In this document: positions 2,675 to 38,520 of the stretch, piece by piece
How the letters are laid out: each line of letters opens with the position of its first letter
How positions within the stretch are numbered: position 1 is the first letter of the stretch
DNA from: Desulfobacteraceae bacterium
Lineage (GTDB): Bacteria; Desulfobacterota; Desulfobacteria; Desulfobacterales; JAABTS01
NCBI GenBank assembly: GCA_011389735.1
Contig: JAABTS010000035.1
Span: 1-40,029 of the forward strand
Length of the DNA: 40,029 nucleotides
Direction: 5' to 3'
Made by a program: the position numbers and the translations under genes
Notes under the pieces: generated by a model
Database searches by the model: none
Told to the model about the DNA's origin: nothing
The model's input: only the letters and a program-made list of their open reading frames with translations

Positions 2675-2755
2675 GGCGTCTTTCATAAATGCTGATAAAT
2701 AGTTTACACTTCTCAAATCGGTATCGAAATCGGTATCGAAATCGGTATCGGGTTG
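2675..2755 (-). repeat. Family F element, truncated copy
   Basis: It starts with the terminal repeat GGCGTCTTTCAT, then the AAATGCTGATAAATAGTTTA segment and three ATCGGTATCGAA-type units. This matches the right-hand side of the full F copies at 17.4 and 25.5 kb in inverted orientation. The (GGGATC)n half and the other terminus are missing, so the copy is truncated near 2755. Confidence 0.75.
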
Positions 2756-6988: not shown

Positions 6989-7240
6989 ATCAGACCCTTT
7001 TTAAATTTGTAAAACATCATTTTTCTCGATAATCGAGGTATTTCCGGCTTAGAATACTGCTTTTGTTTTCACCCAAACAAACCCTGCGGGAAGACACCTT
7101 TTTTCGAATCTCAACCATAATTCAACAATATTGCAAAAATCCTTGATTCCCCTTCCCCGTAGCTCAATCATGGTTTCGATATCATTGATTTTTTCAGAAC
7201 TCAACCATAACTTTCATGGCATTGACGTTCTATAGTTTTT
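6989..7240. other. Intergenic stretch upstream of the hybrid kinase
   Basis: No coding frame is convincing here. The phrase TCAACCATAA or a close variant recurs at about 7110, 7165 and 7200, giving a loose degenerate repeat. The kinase promoter should lie in this stretch, but I cannot assign -35/-10 or sigma-54 elements with confidence. Confidence 0.4.
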
Positions 7241-7268
7241 CAGGAATTAAATTTCACAAGACGGCAGC
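7241..7268. repeat. Family A palindrome, left half only
   Basis: TTCAGGAATTAAATTTCACA followed by AGACGGCAG is the left arm of family A. The right arm is absent and a family B copy begins immediately after it, so the two families are joined end to end here. Confidence 0.6.
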
Positions 7269-14527: not shown

Positions 14528-16693
14528 TTATCTTTGAAGCATGATATCGGAAGCGATATCCGCCGCTTTTTTACGCTGGCAAACATCGCAAAGATGTTGT
14601 TTGAATTTGGGGTTTCCCGTAGACTCAATCCGCCTGCGAACATAGTCGAGATACGCGGTTGTTCCGAGCATCTTGCCACACCCTTCGCAGAACACCAGTT
14701 TCCCTCGATTGAGAACGGTTCCACACAGCGTAAGAATACATTCCGTATCCGTGTAATGGATTTGCATAGCCTGGTTCGGGCAGTGATTGGCGCATGAACC
14801 GCACAGGATACATTTATCCCGCGTGGTGCGGAAATCAGTTTTTACCGGATGGTCGAAATCAAAATAGCCCAACTGTAAAGCGTCCAATTTCATCATGTCC
14901 CGGCATACGGATACGCATTCGCCGCATCGCCGGCAGATATCGCATCGAAGACACCGGCGAGCCTCTTCCCGTACCGCGTTTTCAGGATAGCCGAGTTCCA
15001 CCTGCTGGAACGTGGTTCGGCGGCGGTCGATATTTAAAACCGGCATTTCCGGTCGCTTGAGCGACATTTTGGTCGCCGCCGGGACTTCGATGTTTTCCAC
15101 ACGGGCCCGCCGGACCGGGACCGGCGGCATCGAGGGTTGAGGGATACCCATGAGATAGCGGTCGATGGCCTGTGCGGCCCGTTTCCCGCCGCCGATGGCT
15201 TCGATGACCGTCGCCGGTCCAGTCACCGCATCCCCGGCCGCGAAGACGCCCGGCAGCGATGTTTCCATGCTTACCGTATTCACGTGGATCGTGTTTCGTC
15301 TGGACCAGTTCATGTCCTTCAGTCCGACCATACAATCCCTGTCCACCTGCTGGCCGATAGCGGCGATCACCGCATCCGCTTCGATTACATACTCGCTCCC
15401 ATCGATCGGAACCGGTCTCATCCGCTGTCCGTCCCCAACCGGCTCTAATTTAGCCCGCAGGCATTTAAGCCCGGATGTCCGGCCCGCCTCGCCTGTAATT
15501 TCCACTGGAATGGCCAGGAAAGAAAAATGGATTCCTTCTTCCTCGGCCTGTTCGACTTCTTCTTCATCGGCGGGCATTTCCTTATGAGTCCGGCGATAGG
15601 CGAGCGTCACTTCGGCGCATCCCAGACGCAAACAGGTACGGGCCGAATCGATAGCCACGTTGCCGCCGCCGACCACCACAACCTTTCCGCCCGGCCGCCG
15701 GTGTTCGCCCAGCGCCACACGCCGCAAAAAATCGACGGCTTCAATTGCTCCGTATTCGGATTCGCCCTGGATTCCGAGTTTATAGGCGCTGTGCGCCCCG
15801 ATTGCAACAAAGAAAGCTGCATACCCGTCTTGTTTCAGTTGCTCGAACGTGACGTCGGATCCAAAACGAGTGTTAAACCTAAATTCAACGCCCAGGTCTT
15901 CGAGCATGGCGGTTTCCCGGTCAATCACCTCGGCGGGAAGCCGGTATCGAGGAATTCCAACGCGAAGCATTCCGCCGGCCGCCGGAAGTGATTCAATGAC
16001 GGTCACCCCGTAACCCTTGACTGACAGATAATATGCGCAGCTCAATCCGCCCGGCCCCGCCCCGATAACGCATACCTTCTTTCCTTTGTCCGGCTCCCTT
16101 GGCGGATTGACGTATCTGCCGTCCGACATGGCTCTTTCGGCCGCAAACGCTTTCAGGAATTTGATTGACACCGGCTTGTCGATACGGCCTCGGACACACA
16201 TGAATTCGCAGGGACGGGTGCATACCAAACCGCACACCCAGGGGAAAGGATTGTCCTGCCGGATGACCTCGATCGCTTCCGCATCCCGTCCCATGCCGAT
16301 TAGGGTCACATATGAGGGGATATCGATTCCGGCCGGGCACGCCATCTGGCAGGGAGCCGGCGCCAGTTTGACGCAGTCTCCGGTGGCGCAGTTCCTTGTT
16401 TTTACATGGCTGATGAACACTTCGCGGCGCTCGTCCAACGTTTTCCGGATACGCCGGGCCAGGGGCGAAGCCTCTGGATCCGATATCCGTTCGGCGAGTT
16501 CTTCTTGAAGCTTATCCAGCATCGGTATATGATCCGGCCCGGCGCTTCCCCAGGCGATATCTCTGGCCAGATCGCGAATTTCCTCCACAATCCGCCGGGA
16601 TCGGGGATTTTTCATACAACCGGGTTGAAGAACGTTGTTAAGCTCCAGAACCATTTCATTGACCGGACAATTATTTTCTCTCATATCAGGCAT
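14528..16693 (-). CDS. NAD(P)H-dependent Fe-S flavoprotein, GltD/NfnB-like, with extra N- and C-terminal domains
   Basis: A 721-residue cytoplasmic electron-transfer subunit. Residues about 10-108 resemble the C-terminal Fe-S region of NuoF-type proteins (pattern LDKLQEELAERISD, then EVFISHVKTRNCATGDC) but lack the ESCGKC cysteines. Next is a GltD-type 4Fe-4S domain (Cys115, 119, 154, 158, 162, 166), the FAD motif VIGAGPGG (209-216), and an NAD(P) motif VVVGGGNVAIDSA (about 340). Near 580-640 are two ferredoxin-like clusters (CLRCDICRRCGECVSVC and CILCGSCANHC), then a Cys-rich tail (CEGCGKM, CDVCQRKK) that may bind zinc or another cluster. It probably passes electrons between NAD(P)H and the 4Fe-4S and molybdopterin subunits encoded upstream. 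The direction and coenzyme are not shown by sequence. Confidence 0.88.
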   Translation of the reverse strand: MPDMRENNCPVNEMVLELNNVLQPGCMKNPRSRRIVEEIRDLARDIAWGSAGPDHIPMLDKLQEELAERISDPEASPLARRIRKTLDERREVFISHVKTRNCATGDCVKLAPAPCQMACPAGIDIPSYVTLIGMGRDAEAIEVIRQDNPFPWVCGLVCTRPCEFMCVRGRIDKPVSIKFLKAFAAERAMSDGRYVNPPREPDKGKKVCVIGAGPGGLSCAYYLSVKGYGVTVIESLPAAGGMLRVGIPRYRLPAEVIDRETAMLEDLGVEFRFNTRFGSDVTFEQLKQDGYAAFFVAIGAHSAYKLGIQGESEYGAIEAVDFLRRVALGEHRRPGGKVVVVGGGNVAIDSARTCLRLGCAEVTLAYRRTHKEMPADEEEVEQAEEEGIHFSFLAIPVEITGEAGRTSGLKCLRAKLEPVGDGQRMRPVPIDGSEYVIEADAVIAAIGQQVDRDCMVGLKDMNWSRRNTIHVNTVSMETSLPGVFAAGDAVTGPATVIEAIGGGKRAAQAIDRYLMGIPQPSMPPVPVRRARVENIEVPAATKMSLKRPEMPVLNIDRRRTTFQQVELGYPENAVREEARRCLRCDICRRCGECVSVCRDMMKLDALQLGYFDFDHPVKTDFRTTRDKCILCGSCANHCPNQAMQIHYTDTECILTLCGTVLNRGKLVFCEGCGKMLGTTAYLDYVRRRIESTGNPKFKQHLCDVCQRKKAADIASDIMLQR

Positions 16694-16859: not shown

Positions 16860-17366
16860 TCAACCCTCGATCAACGCTGTTTTTTTTACCCATTGCTCCC
16901 TTTTTCCGGATGAAATTTGTTCAGCTCGATCAAACGTCAGGCATTGGGTAAGACATATGGTGACGCAGGCCGGTTTCAGCCCGGAGTCGATACGGTCCAT
17001 GCAGAAATCACACTTTTCCACCTTCCGGGTTTCGGGATTCCATTGCGGCGCGCCCCAGGGACAGGCGGAAATACAGCTTTTGCATCCCACGCAATCTGCC
17101 TGGACAATATACACGATTCCGTCTTTTTCCCGTTTTCGCATGGCCCCGGTGGGGCAGGCGTTGACACACCAGGGGGTGTCGCAATGATGGCAATTCATGA
17201 ACACGTATGCCGCTCTGGGCTTTCCGTCAATCATTTTCGGGCCCACATGAACGATCTGACAAAGCCTGGGGCCAACCGGCAATGATTTGTTGCTCTTGCA
17301 CTGAATTTCGCATGAATGGCATCCAATGCATCTTTCCTGGTCCTGGATCATACAATATATACTCAT
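16860..17366 (-). CDS. 4Fe-4S electron-transfer subunit, DmsB/PhsB-like
   Basis: A 168-residue ferredoxin-type subunit that carries electrons between the molybdopterin enzyme and its partner. Four cysteine groups are visible: CIGCHSCEIQC (about 14-24), CHHCDTPWCVNACP (about 59-72), CVGCKSCISACPWG (about 92-105), and CDFCMDRI with later CVTIC (about 120-140), as in DmsB, PhsB and NrfC proteins that hold four clusters. The start has a strong GGAGG site. There is no Tat or Sec signal, so it is cytoplasmic like its catalytic partner. It lies between the catalytic and flavoprotein genes. The 201-bp gap to the catalytic gene is mostly a family F insertion. No membrane anchor subunit is encoded nearby. 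Confidence 0.92.
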   Translation of the reverse strand: MSIYCMIQDQERCIGCHSCEIQCKSNKSLPVGPRLCQIVHVGPKMIDGKPRAAYVFMNCHHCDTPWCVNACPTGAMRKREKDGIVYIVQADCVGCKSCISACPWGAPQWNPETRKVEKCDFCMDRIDSGLKPACVTICLTQCLTFDRAEQISSGKREQWVKKTALIEG

Positions 17367-17417
17367 TATTCCTCCAAGTCAGTTCCGGGGGTTCGATCAA
17401 ATCCCAATCAAAAATTC

Positions 17418-17558
17418 GGCATCCTTCATTTCTTGTTTACAGTTACATCAAAATCGGGATCGGGATCGGGATCGGGATCGTAATAATTCGATACCGATGC
17501 CGATTTCGATACCGATTTGGGAAGTGTAAACTATTTATCAGCATTTATGAAAGACGCC
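17418..17558. mobile_element. Family F MITE-like element inside the reductase operon
   Basis: A 141-bp element with 12-bp terminal inverted repeats (GGCATCCTTCAT and ATGAAAGACGCC, 10 of 12 paired). Inside are four GGGATC units and a block of GATACCGAT/GATTTCGAT units. It is flanked by AAAATTC on both sides (17411-17417 and 17560-17566), consistent with a 7-8 bp target duplication. It sits between the molybdopterin gene stop (17568) and the 4Fe-4S gene start. It differs from the 25.5-kb copy by exactly two hexamers plus a few substitutions. Confidence 0.85.
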
Positions 17559-17567
17559 GAAAATTCC

Positions 17568-19697
17568 TTATATCCGTTTCACACGGACAAACGTGTCGTG
17601 AAGCGCGGGACTGCCGCCGATCTTGTCATATAAATTTTCCTGCAGGAGCGCGTCCGAAAGCCCTTTTTTGAACGAACGGCCCGCGTATTCCACGTCGTGC
17701 CCGAAACCGTGCAGCATGAAAACCGCATCCGGATGAATTGAATCCGTCACTTTCGCCTCGATTTCTCCGGAACCGGCTTTGGACGACACTTCAACCCGGT
17801 CTCCGTCCGATATGCCCAGCTCCGCGGCTCGGATTTCATTGATCCAGAGCACGTTTTTCGATACGACTTCATTTAGATATTGGTTGTTCTGAGTGGAAAT
17901 ATGCGTATGCAGGGCGATTCGTCCCACTGTGAGGCGAAACTGGTCCCCGGACGGTTTCGGAACGGGTTCATATTCAGGAAATGACGGATACCCGGCCTCT
18001 TCGAGCAAGTTGGATTGAAATTCCACTTTGCCGGACGCTGTTTTAAATTTAAGCTCCATTTCGTGATCCCACCATATCGGGTTCTGGCAATAGGATACAA
18101 ACCCTTTGGTTTCAAAATCCCGCCTGGTGAACCCGGTCCCGTCGAGCTGCCAGGGGACCAGCTCGTCCATACTGTCATAGGGAAAATAATCTCCAGCTCC
18201 CAGGCGCGCGGCCAGGAGTTTTAATATGACCGCGCTTTCGAGAGTGTCATATCGGGGCGGGACGGCCTGATTGCGCAGAAACATCTGAGGCTTCAATCCA
18301 TTGGCCTGTTGAACGCTGTCGGTGCGTTCCAGATAAATGGATTCAGGCAGAATCACGTCCGCATGCCAGGCGGTGTCGCTGTAATTGATCTCGATGGCGG
18401 CGATAAAGTCCAGCTTTTCAAACGCCCTGAGCGTCAGGTTGGTGTCGGGAACGGACATCAGCGGTTCGAACCGGTTGACGATCAGCGCTTTAATCGGATA
18501 CGGATCTTCATCGAGGATCGCGCGAGGAAGCATCTGCGCCACGCCGTGAGCCGTATCGGGAAGCGGAAAGTCAGGGGTTCCGACTTTATCGAATCGGATT
18601 TTATCGACTTTTGGGACGTGAGCCTGTTCGGTGAGCTTCCTGGCTGCTTTACGGCCGACTTCGCCGGGACCTTTCTTGAAAAACACGCCGCCCCTGGTCT
18701 CGATGCTCCCCATCAGAGCGTTCAGAATCAGGATCGATCTGCGCAGGTAAATTTCGTTCTGATGATGGGCTCCCCGATACCCGAAATGAAAGATGACCGC
18801 AGGTTTATCTCTTCCCGCCGCCCTGGCCAGCTCCACAATCCGTGCGGCGGGAATTCCGGTTTCCGCCTCAGCCCATTCGGGCGTTAAAGCTCGAACAAAT
18901 TCCCGCAGTTCATCGAATCCATGAACCCATTTTTTCACAAATGCGGCGTCATACAATTTTTCCTCGATGATGACATGCATCAATGCGTAATTGAGCGCCA
19001 GATCGGTTCCAGGCCGGATCATCCAGTACCTGTGCGCCCTGGTCGCCGTGACCGTGACACGCGGATCGATGTAGGTCAGCTCACATCCTTTCTCGAGGGC
19101 GGCGGCAAGATTCCGCACCTCTTTCACGGCGATGGATTCGAACATATTCCGGCCATATAAAATGATCTGTCTGGCTTCCGGATAATGCATACTCATCTGT
19201 GCGTCCGTGTAGCCGAAAAGACTCCGGCACGCGGTATTGACCGATCCCTTGCAGAGGGCGTCATGGGTGTAATGATTCGGCGATCCGATGGCTCTCATGA
19301 ATGTCTTGCTGATATGCGTGTTGAGATTGGCTCTTTCACCAAAAGCCACGCTTTCGGGACCATATTGAGCGATGATTGCCTTGAGTTTTTCCGCCGTGTA
19401 ATCCAGAGCCTCTTCCCAGGTCGCTTTTCGCCATTGGCCGGAACCTCTCGGCCCCATGCGGATCATCGGCGCCTGCAACCGTTCGTTGTCGTTCAACAGC
19501 GCTATGCCGGCCGCTCCTCGCGGGCACAAAACACCGTCTATTCCGGCGACGTGCGGATTTCCCTGAACCCATGTCACCCGACCGTCCTTCGTGGACACCC
19601 GGATAGGGCATCTTACCGAACACATAAAACAAAGACTGTAAACTTCATTCTCCATTGTTTTCGAACTCTGATCGAATACTGGCGTCTCTTTTGTCAT
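17568..19697 (-). CDS. Molybdopterin oxidoreductase, thiosulfate/polysulfide reductase-like catalytic subunit
   Basis: A 709-residue DMSO-reductase-family enzyme. The N-terminal 4Fe-4S site is C23-x2-C26-x3-C30-x27-C58. The likely molybdenum ligand is Cys149 in THDALCKGSVN, which fits the Phs/Psr/Nap side of the family, not the Ser of DmsA or Asp of NarG. Later parts show LILNALMGSIETRGG, YSDTAWHADVILPESIYLER (about 450-470) and the C-terminal cofactor-binding barrel with NDLR-type NEIRAAELGISDGDRVEV. There is no Tat signal, so the enzyme is cytoplasmic, unlike classical periplasmic PhsA. With the 4Fe-4S and NAD(P)H flavoprotein genes downstream, it forms a soluble NAD(P)H-linked reductase, perhaps for polysulfide or thiosulfate. 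The TauE gene opposite supports a sulfur role. The substrate is inferred. Confidence 0.88.
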   Translation of the reverse strand: MTKETPVFDQSSKTMENEVYSLCFMCSVRCPIRVSTKDGRVTWVQGNPHVAGIDGVLCPRGAAGIALLNDNERLQAPMIRMGPRGSGQWRKATWEEALDYTAEKLKAIIAQYGPESVAFGERANLNTHISKTFMRAIGSPNHYTHDALCKGSVNTACRSLFGYTDAQMSMHYPEARQIILYGRNMFESIAVKEVRNLAAALEKGCELTYIDPRVTVTATRAHRYWMIRPGTDLALNYALMHVIIEEKLYDAAFVKKWVHGFDELREFVRALTPEWAEAETGIPAARIVELARAAGRDKPAVIFHFGYRGAHHQNEIYLRRSILILNALMGSIETRGGVFFKKGPGEVGRKAARKLTEQAHVPKVDKIRFDKVGTPDFPLPDTAHGVAQMLPRAILDEDPYPIKALIVNRFEPLMSVPDTNLTLRAFEKLDFIAAIEINYSDTAWHADVILPESIYLERTDSVQQANGLKPQMFLRNQAVPPRYDTLESAVILKLLAARLGAGDYFPYDSMDELVPWQLDGTGFTRRDFETKGFVSYCQNPIWWDHEMELKFKTASGKVEFQSNLLEEAGYPSFPEYEPVPKPSGDQFRLTVGRIALHTHISTQNNQYLNEVVSKNVLWINEIRAAELGISDGDRVEVSSKAGSGEIEAKVTDSIHPDAVFMLHGFGHDVEYAGRSFKKGLSDALLQENLYDKIGGSPALHDTFVRVKRI

Positions 19698-25499: not shown

Positions 25500-25652
25500 G
25501 GCATCCTTCATTTCTTGTTTACAGTTTCATCAAAATCGGGATCGGGATCGGGATCGGGATCGGGATCGTAATAATTCGATACCGATACCGATGCCGATTT
25601 CGATACCGATTTGGGAAGTGTAAACTATTTATCGGCATTTATGAAAGATGCC
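25500..25652. mobile_element. Family F MITE-like element with perfect 8-bp target duplication
   Basis: A 153-bp element with ends GGCATCCTTCAT and ATGAAAGATGCC (11 of 12 paired). Inside are five GGGATC units and the GATACCGAT block. It is flanked by identical AAAATACT at 25492-25499 and 25653-25660, a clear target-site duplication. It has no coding capacity, so mobility would depend on a transposase elsewhere. Confidence 0.9.
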
Positions 25653-26807: not shown

Positions 26808-26888
26808 GTCAACGGCGTAAAAACCCCGGCTGAAAAGTTTATCTGGTCATTGGCCGTTTATTTTTCATATTGCCAAATTTTCGGCAAG
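26808..26888. repeat. 81-bp duplicated segment, copy 1
   Basis: GTCAACGGCGTAAAAACCCC onward, repeated with about five changes at 27002-27082. Each copy is followed by a family E end (TCGGGTTACGCG). The pair makes a roughly 194-bp tandem duplication in the 587-bp gap between the solute-binding protein and pyruvate kinase genes. Confidence 0.85.
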
Positions 26889-27001: not shown

Positions 27002-27082
27002 GTCAACGGCGTAAAAACCCCGGCTGAAAAGTTTATCTGGTCATTGACCGTTTATTTTTCATATTTCCAGGTTTTCGGCAAG
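27002..27082. repeat. 81-bp duplicated segment, copy 2
   Basis: Second copy of the segment at 26808-26888. It is followed by about 45 unrelated bases and then a lone family E end. Confidence 0.85.
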
Positions 27083-31676: not shown

Positions 31677-31688
31677 TCTAAATATCGG

Positions 31689-31804
31689 CTGAACGAAAAA
31701 CTCCTCAAGCTCCAAGGGGATTTGCAATCCCCGTTTACCACAAGAAGGGACACGCGGGTTACAAACCCGCTCAGAGCCGTATTTTGAAACTTTTCGTTCA
31801 AGCA
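31689..31804. mobile_element. Family B element bracketed by an 11-bp direct repeat
   Basis: Ends CTGAACGAAAA and TTTTCGTTCA are inverted. The interior has the hairpins GGGGATTTGCAATCCCC and GCGGGTTACAAACCCGC. Identical CTAAATATCGG flanks lie at 31678-31688 and 31805-31815, as expected for a target-site duplication. The right-hand copy contains the ParB-like gene stop codon. Between two convergent genes, the hairpins could also end transcription on both sides. Confidence 0.8.
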
Positions 31805-32809
31805 CTAAATATCGGAATAATCCAGGAGTTCCTTAAAAAGAGGATTCGCCGCAATATCGGGTAGCTTTGTCAACAATTGATCCAGCTCCGTTTTATTCCG
31901 AAATTGCAGGCGTATAGTAAAATTGGGGCCTTCCATGTAAGGCGGCGGAATAATATCTACGCCTTTGTATTTCGGAAGCGTATCGAGGAGTGATTTGATT
32001 TGTTTTTCAGATCGGGTCAATTCAGGATACCGGCGCTGTCTCAGGTGCGTTCTCAGGAGCTTAATTTTTCGATTTCCGTCTTCCGAGGGATCGTTTAAAA
32101 CAGCTTGTATCGACGGGCCGGCCAGAATTTCGGTAATCGGGATGTCTTCCCGTGCGGATATTTCTTGAATCAGCGTCAGAATGTCGCGTTGCTTGTTCAG
32201 GCCCGGCCTGAGAGCGATAAAAATGTCCGCGACCGCTGTTCTGACGGGCTCCTTTATTCCCACCAGTTCCGAAGCCATGGCGATGGGGATGATTCCGCCG
32301 GCTACGGCGTTCCGGATAGGATCGGAAAGCCCTGAAAAGGATCGAAGCTTTTCGATCACCGCCTGATTATCAGGAAGACCAGATTTTCGGGCCAGATCGG
32401 CAAGGCTCGAAGGCCCGTCCGCAAATTTTCCAAAAAGATCGAGCGCGTTTGATATCTCGATGGGATTCAACGGCCCTTGAAAAATTTGCCCGGAAACGGC
32501 GATTTGAGCCGGAATTAGCGGGGGTGTTCCGCTCTCGACGATTCCGGCCGTGATTTCGGAATGCGCCGTTTCCATACACGCCCAAACCCTTCGAAAACCG
32601 CAGATAATTCGATAGAAATCCGGTTCGGAGGCAATCCGTTGCAAAATCGGCGGCTGAAGAAGGCCCACATCCCGGATGTTTTCCGCCAGAAAATCATACG
32701 ACTCGTTTGTATTGATCCGAAAGGATCTATCATTCGCTCTGATCCTCGAAAGAGAGACCGGCTCGTATCGAACGGAGAAAGCGGGCGTATGATTATTGGC
32801 GGACTTCAT
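31805..32809 (-). CDS. ParB-like nuclease-fold/partition-type protein
   Basis: A 334-residue soluble protein. The N-terminal part resembles ParB/Spo0J: LSRIRANDRSFRIN, NIRDVGLLQPPILQRI (about 45-60), and FYRIICGFRRVWAC (about 68-81), where GFRR matches the ParB GERR CTP-binding motif. A helical middle (about 130-200) with LADLARKSGLPDNQAVIEKLRSF and GIIPIAMASELVGI looks like the DNA-binding helices of ParB. The C-terminal third has no clear match. There is no parA nearby, and it starts 11 nt after the purC stop, so it is co-transcribed with purC rather than placed in a par locus. It may be a stand-alone ParB-family regulator; chromosome partition is not supported by context. Confidence 0.75.
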   Translation of the reverse strand: MKSANNHTPAFSVRYEPVSLSRIRANDRSFRINTNESYDFLAENIRDVGLLQPPILQRIASEPDFYRIICGFRRVWACMETAHSEITAGIVESGTPPLIPAQIAVSGQIFQGPLNPIEISNALDLFGKFADGPSSLADLARKSGLPDNQAVIEKLRSFSGLSDPIRNAVAGGIIPIAMASELVGIKEPVRTAVADIFIALRPGLNKQRDILTLIQEISAREDIPITEILAGPSIQAVLNDPSEDGNRKIKLLRTHLRQRRYPELTRSEKQIKSLLDTLPKYKGVDIIPPPYMEGPNFTIRLQFRNKTELDQLLTKLPDIAANPLFKELLDYSDI

Positions 32810-37956: not shown

Positions 37957-38000
37957 CAGGCTTCCGGAAATCAAATTTCACTGTGTTGTCGGTCATTAGT
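37957..38000. repeat. Family A left arm, interrupted by a family B element
   Basis: AGGCTTCCGGAAATCAAATT then TCACTGTGTTGTCGG repeats the left arm of the preceding copy. A family B element begins at 38001, and a right arm of family A (CCTTGCGAAATTGAATTTTT) appears on the far side at about 38163-38187. Confidence 0.7.
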
Positions 38001-38118
38001 GACTGAACGAAAAGTCTCAAAATACGGCTCTAAGCGGGTTTGCAACCCGCGTCTACCTTCTCGCGGCAAACGGGGATTGCAAATCCCCTTAGAGCGTGAG
38101 GAGGTTTTCGTTCAGCCA
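38001..38118. mobile_element. Family B element, full copy
   Basis: Ends CTGAACGAAAA and TTTTCGTTCAG are perfectly inverted. Hairpins GCGGGTTTGCAACCCGC and GGGGATTGCAAATCCCC lie inside. It is in the opposite orientation to the 31689-31804 copy. It appears to lie within a family A copy, which would make B the younger insertion here. Confidence 0.8.
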
Positions 38119-38520
38119 ATCATTAAATATCCTCAGCGTCGCTGTGGAGTCCTTTCGGCCTACAGCCTTGCGAAATTGAATTTTTGAAACCGGATGTATT
38201 TCGATTCGATTTCTTTTTTGAAATTAATCCGATTTAATTTGAAAAAACAGCCGATCCCTGTTAAAGCTGTTTTTCGAAAGTCGATCTGAAGGTATTATTT
38301 CACAAAGTGGTTTAAAAAGTCAATGGCTTGAAGTCATTTCGCTTATATATGGACGGATTCCGGAGATTGATTGCATTTTGTCGCCTTCCCGTGAAACTTG
38401 ATTTCCGGAAGGCGATAGTTTTAGAACCACGATATGGAGGTGTTACAATGGATCGCGGGAATGTCGGATTAGAAATGAACTTGTTTCGAATTGAAAAATC
38501 CGGTGTTCCTTTTTAAAACC
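38119..38520. other. Leader region of the malate dehydrogenase gene with repeat relics
   Basis: It holds a family A right arm (about 38148-38190) and another relic near 38390-38413 (CGTGAAACTTGATTTCCGGA). A 62-codon frame at 38328 is unsupported. I cannot assign promoter boxes. Confidence 0.45.

Follow-up and report, generated by a model that had tools for sequence, protein, structure and literature searches.

A MITE between two subunit genes of a reductase operon in a Desulfobacteraceae genome, and its full-length relatives

The minus strand of the window, by which we mean the whole 40,029-nucleotide stretch of Desulfobacteraceae DNA that was analysed, carries a three-gene reductase cluster. 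The catalytic subunit is a PhsA/PsrA-like molybdopterin oxidoreductase of 709 aa (17568..19697; Pfam: PF00384, PF04879, PF01568), which is followed by the 168 aa 4Fe-4S electron-transfer subunit (16860..17366; Pfam: PF13247) and by an FAD/NAD(P) oxidoreductase as the third gene (14528..16693; Pfam: PF07992, PF14691). Thiosulfate and polysulfide reductases are the nearest relatives of the catalytic subunit, with a match to PDB 2vpw and a match to the thiosulfate reductase model NF012032 below its cut-off. The first-pass annotation placed an inserted 141-bp element between the first two genes and suggested that it might change the ratio of the two subunits. Here we ask what this element is, how it came to lie there and whether it matters for the operon.

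The element is a complete copy of 141 bp at 17418..17558 on the forward strand, with sharp homology borders that are common to dozens of copies in the genome. Its length was thus given correctly before, while the earlier right end at 17566 takes in the target duplication and has to be moved to 17558. The catalytic stop codon (17568-17570, minus strand) lies 9 bp beyond this end, and the gap to the next gene is 201 bp when measured to the ATG of the Fe-S gene at 17366; both distances agree with the first description. An intact ribosome-binding site, GGAGG, is retained just upstream of the Fe-S gene. The terminal inverted repeats are also present, in imperfect form, since the tips GGCATCCTTCAT and ATGAAAGACGCC are complementary at 10 of 12 positions. 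The left terminal repeat (17418..17445, forward strand) consists of the tip and the inner part TTGTTTACAGTT and is one base off the family left end. The right terminal repeat AGTGTAAACTATTTATCAGCATTTATGAAAGACGCC (17523..17558, forward strand) matches the right ends of the full-length insertion sequences (IS) described below. Between them lies an internal hexamer array, (ATCGGG)n, at 17451..17480 (forward strand), which varies from copy to copy. The element has no gene of its own and, compared with the family consensus over 142 positions, shows 2 differences.

The left target duplication AAAAATTC (17410..17417) and the right one GAAAATTC (17559..17566), both read on the forward strand, differ by one mismatch. 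The flanking repeat noted earlier as 7 bp is therefore real, and an 8-bp repeat with a single mismatch describes it better, the seven identical bases being those that had been seen. Across the family, identical 8-bp flanks were found in 27 of 43 copies and flanks with one mismatch in eight more, so that 35 of 43 copies have at most one mismatch, compared with about 1.9% when the flanks were swapped between copies as a control. The target sites are rich in A+T, at 75% compared with 63% for the flanks and 51% for the window. Joining the flanks of two copies yields sequences similar to unoccupied repeats of the window, namely for copy L022 the repeat at 2531-2595 (85% over 66 bp) and for copy L042 the repeat at 7221-7265 (80% over 45 bp). 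A repeat family TTTTCAGAAATTAAATTTCACAAGGCGGC, present in the window at 7234, 29426, 36548, 37853, 37957 and 39579, is a target for several element copies.

The genome around the window is a draft of 6.5 Mb in 477 contigs, and searching it for the end patterns of the family returned 98 left and 88 right ends. Reversed control patterns gave no match in the same search, so this copy number is far beyond chance. Sixty-nine end pairs could be joined, and their lengths, 117-177 bp, fall mostly on a 6-bp ladder because the internal ATCGGG array varies. The window itself holds a second complete copy of 153 bp (25500..25652, forward strand) with the perfect 8-bp duplication AAAATACT, and a truncated copy with the right half only (2675..2744, minus strand). 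We considered the unpaired ends as candidates for autonomous copies and rejected them, as those inspected turned out to lie at contig ends, to be truncated, to be hybrids with sister subfamilies or to involve nested insertions. Many of these unpaired ends lie at contig ends, and therefore the element probably breaks the assembly.

Other repeats accompany the family in this genome. A sister MITE subfamily with the ends GGCATCCTTCATCTGTCAGTTTACACTTTG and CACTTTCCTGGGTTTATGAAGGATGCC occurs genome-wide (for example at C1:68661 and C2:37334), and a search for it with up to three mismatches returned 114 ends, some of which represent a third subfamily (GGCATCCTTCATTGATCAGTTTACAC). Hybrids of the present family with the sister subfamily were seen at L105, L113 and L116. 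A different repeat, with the ends GTGGCTGAACGAAAA...TTTTCGTTCAGCCAC, is nested within elements of the present family at L112, L114, L118 and L122, and its inner motifs are shared by the window repeats 31679-31808 and 37996-38125. The window also has a direct repeat of 81 bp (26808-26888 and 27002-27082; 95% identical, 194 bp apart).

The three-gene order of the cluster is also present in several relatives, which allows the spacer to be compared. Presence of the element at all orthologous sites would have spoken against the first-pass reading; it was found at this site in no related genome examined, being absent from the spacer in 10 of 10 measurable loci with adjacent catalytic and Fe-S genes, all from other families of the order and at varying distance. 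In the search for relatives, neither the genus nor the family was represented by another genome. Without the element and one target copy the window spacer would be 52 bp long, and seven of the orthologous spacers measure 22, 26, 27, 32, 49, 54 and 67 bp. The three longer ones are of 146 bp (L082, a Desulfobacterales MAG), 190 bp (L053) and 274 bp (L065). At L053 (genome G031) an unrelated repeat, GCGGGTTTGAAACCCGC, adds to the length of the spacer, which also contains 100 masked bases and so is not fully readable.

Of 291 genomes of the order, 35, the window's own among them, carry the end architecture GGCATCYTTCAT-N-GTTTACACTTT, and its reversed control gave no match in any of the 291. The copies in other genomes have differing middles and mostly perfect 8-bp duplications. 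Among the loci fetched, three are about 1.9 kb long, two in genome G114 (L183 and L189, 1923 bp) and one in genome G143 (L212, 1951 bp). G114 has four identical 1923-bp elements, three of them with perfect 8-bp duplications, and each encodes the same 533-aa protein; in the 1951-bp copy of G143 the coding gene is frameshifted. Aligned with these two full-length IS, the left end of the family is identical to their left ends in 25 of 29 and 26 of 29 columns, and the right end agrees less well with theirs, in 29 of 40 and 30 of 38 columns. Against the G114 IS, both family ends scored above all 5000 shuffles.

The 533-aa protein has no Pfam or NCBIfam match over a curated cut-off, with IS256, ISL3, IS1595 and IS481 included in the scans, and shows weak sub-threshold matches to Transposase_mut, IS256, IS481 and rve. 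The matches to IS256 (Transposase_mut) have E-values of 0.04-0.08, far below the cut-offs. In its duplications of 8-9 bp and its TTTACAC-like ends the IS256 family resembles the present elements. Residues D164, D178, D218 and E455 are invariant in three homologues of the 533-aa protein and are candidate DDE residues; this pattern fits a DDE transposase, although it is not proof of one. Profile comparison aligned the protein with the DUF6399 group (Pfam: PF19936) with an hhalign probability of 98% and 22% identity over 458 columns. The only homologue of this transposase in the window's genome is a DUF6399 transposase-like gene of 537 aa (G000:C333, L227:562-2175, minus strand; about 22% identical in the profile alignment), which lacks these ends. 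That genome yielded no intact parent IS bounded by such ends; Transposase_mut and ISL3 transposases had no match there either, and IS1595 transposases had none in eight carrier genomes. A matching autonomous partner, bounded by ends of this type, was found in G114 and, in frameshifted form, in G143, but not in the window's genome. In plasmids and phages, matches to a 149-bp query were weak and short throughout, the 30-base end alone had no match in plasmids, and viral contigs contained neither an end-pattern match nor a relative of the transposase.

Taken together, the family-wide 8-bp target duplications, the element-free orthologous spacers and the existence of full-length elements that combine related ends with a transposase gene bear out the insertion. 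We are highly confident that 17418-17558 is a MITE, a short, gene-free element whose ends are of the kind that a full-length IS transposase recognises. Because related ends and 8-bp duplications bound the transposase-bearing elements, we regard it as a non-autonomous cousin of the 1.9-kb IS. The likely parent type would be such an IS with a single DDE-type transposase of about 530 aa, as present in the two other genomes of the order. High copy number, palindromic shape and intergenic position would also suit a REP/BIME-type palindrome dispersed by a Y1 (RAYT) transposase, or alternatively a conserved structured RNA, in place of an inserted DDE-type element. However, the family has fixed 8-bp target duplications, which Y1 transposases are not known to make, its full-length relatives encode a putative DDE-type transposase, and there was no Rfam match, so this explanation is extremely improbable. 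For the MITE, we infer mobilisation in trans: the transposase would have placed it into an AT-rich spot just past the catalytic stop codon, duplicating 8 bp and widening a spacer of about 52 bp to 201 bp. Tentatively, an undescribed IS family distant from DUF6399 might have seeded several MITE families with ends of about 29-36 bp across the order, and the window's genome might since have lost the transposase, so that its MITEs would now be orphans.

If transcription reads through, the MITE would form a long hairpin between two cistrons of the mRNA, and changed mRNA processing is possible. On the transcript (coding) strand the element is predicted to fold almost wholly on itself (-53.3 kcal/mol, z -7.8), beginning 9 nt past the upstream stop codon, and in the fold of the whole spacer the Shine-Dalgarno sequence of the Fe-S gene lies outside the main hairpin. 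The element might have been recruited as a regulatory RNA, an inter-cistronic hairpin that is cut by RNase III or shields the upstream message and so sets how much catalytic subunit is made relative to the Fe-S subunit. Precedents are the Correia elements, which are cut by RNase III, and ERIC, which alters mRNA levels in Yersinia (PMC10969869, PMC2229807). We consider such recruitment unlikely, as inverted repeats alone suffice for the folding and relatives have the same gene order without the element. Moreover, in 32 copies the left arm ranges over 17-65 nt while 31 nt is the usual length of the right arm, and the two lengths show almost no correlation (r 0.12); arms that vary independently argue against a maintained RNA structure. 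Of the 27 copies that have ORFs (called crudely by length) to their left and right, 20 lie between same-strand ORFs, and copies L002 and L255 are only 6-26 bp from both neighbouring ORFs, so the position of the window copy is not unusual. Still less likely, and in our view quite improbable, is a role as a partial terminator. The U-rich stretch GAAUUUUUGAUU, supplied by the target duplication and its flank, does directly follow the stem on the transcript strand, but the run is short, a terminator scan, which counts short loops only, found 0 against 0.6 expected, and expression of the downstream genes would be lost. The sole promoter-like site was at chance level.

Known systems offer analogies for such an insertion. 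The ends and the duplication type of the Correia/NEMIS elements differ from those of the present family. In size (about 100-155 bp), hairpin formation and a position beside genes with which they are co-transcribed, these Neisseria elements are nevertheless alike, and RNase III cutting has been shown for them (PMC10969869, PMC2229807). The Chunjie MITE of Geobacter uraniireducens is 178-235 bp long, with conserved inverted ends, direct repeats and dozens of mostly intergenic copies, and one copy lies in an operon, which, going by the original paper's title, keeps its structure (PMC10969869). Likened by description, Chunjie and the present family share inverted ends, direct repeats, dozens of copies and insertion into an operon. 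Since published MITEs can change mRNA processing, the first-pass suggestion of an altered ratio of catalytic to Fe-S subunit is reasonable by analogy, and such an effect is possible.

The MITE insertion is confirmed and is ordinary in kind; what is modestly new is the family itself, which is apparently undescribed, and its full-length relatives. The literature search found no paper linking MITEs with Desulfobacterales, and the papers containing the tip sequence were all unrelated. As full-length parents are known from other genomes, a transposition test would be straightforward. Identification as a MITE accounts for a repeat that breaks the assembly at many places and might otherwise be mistaken for a regulatory element. 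For the reductase operon, we infer that this copy is most likely a near-neutral insertion.
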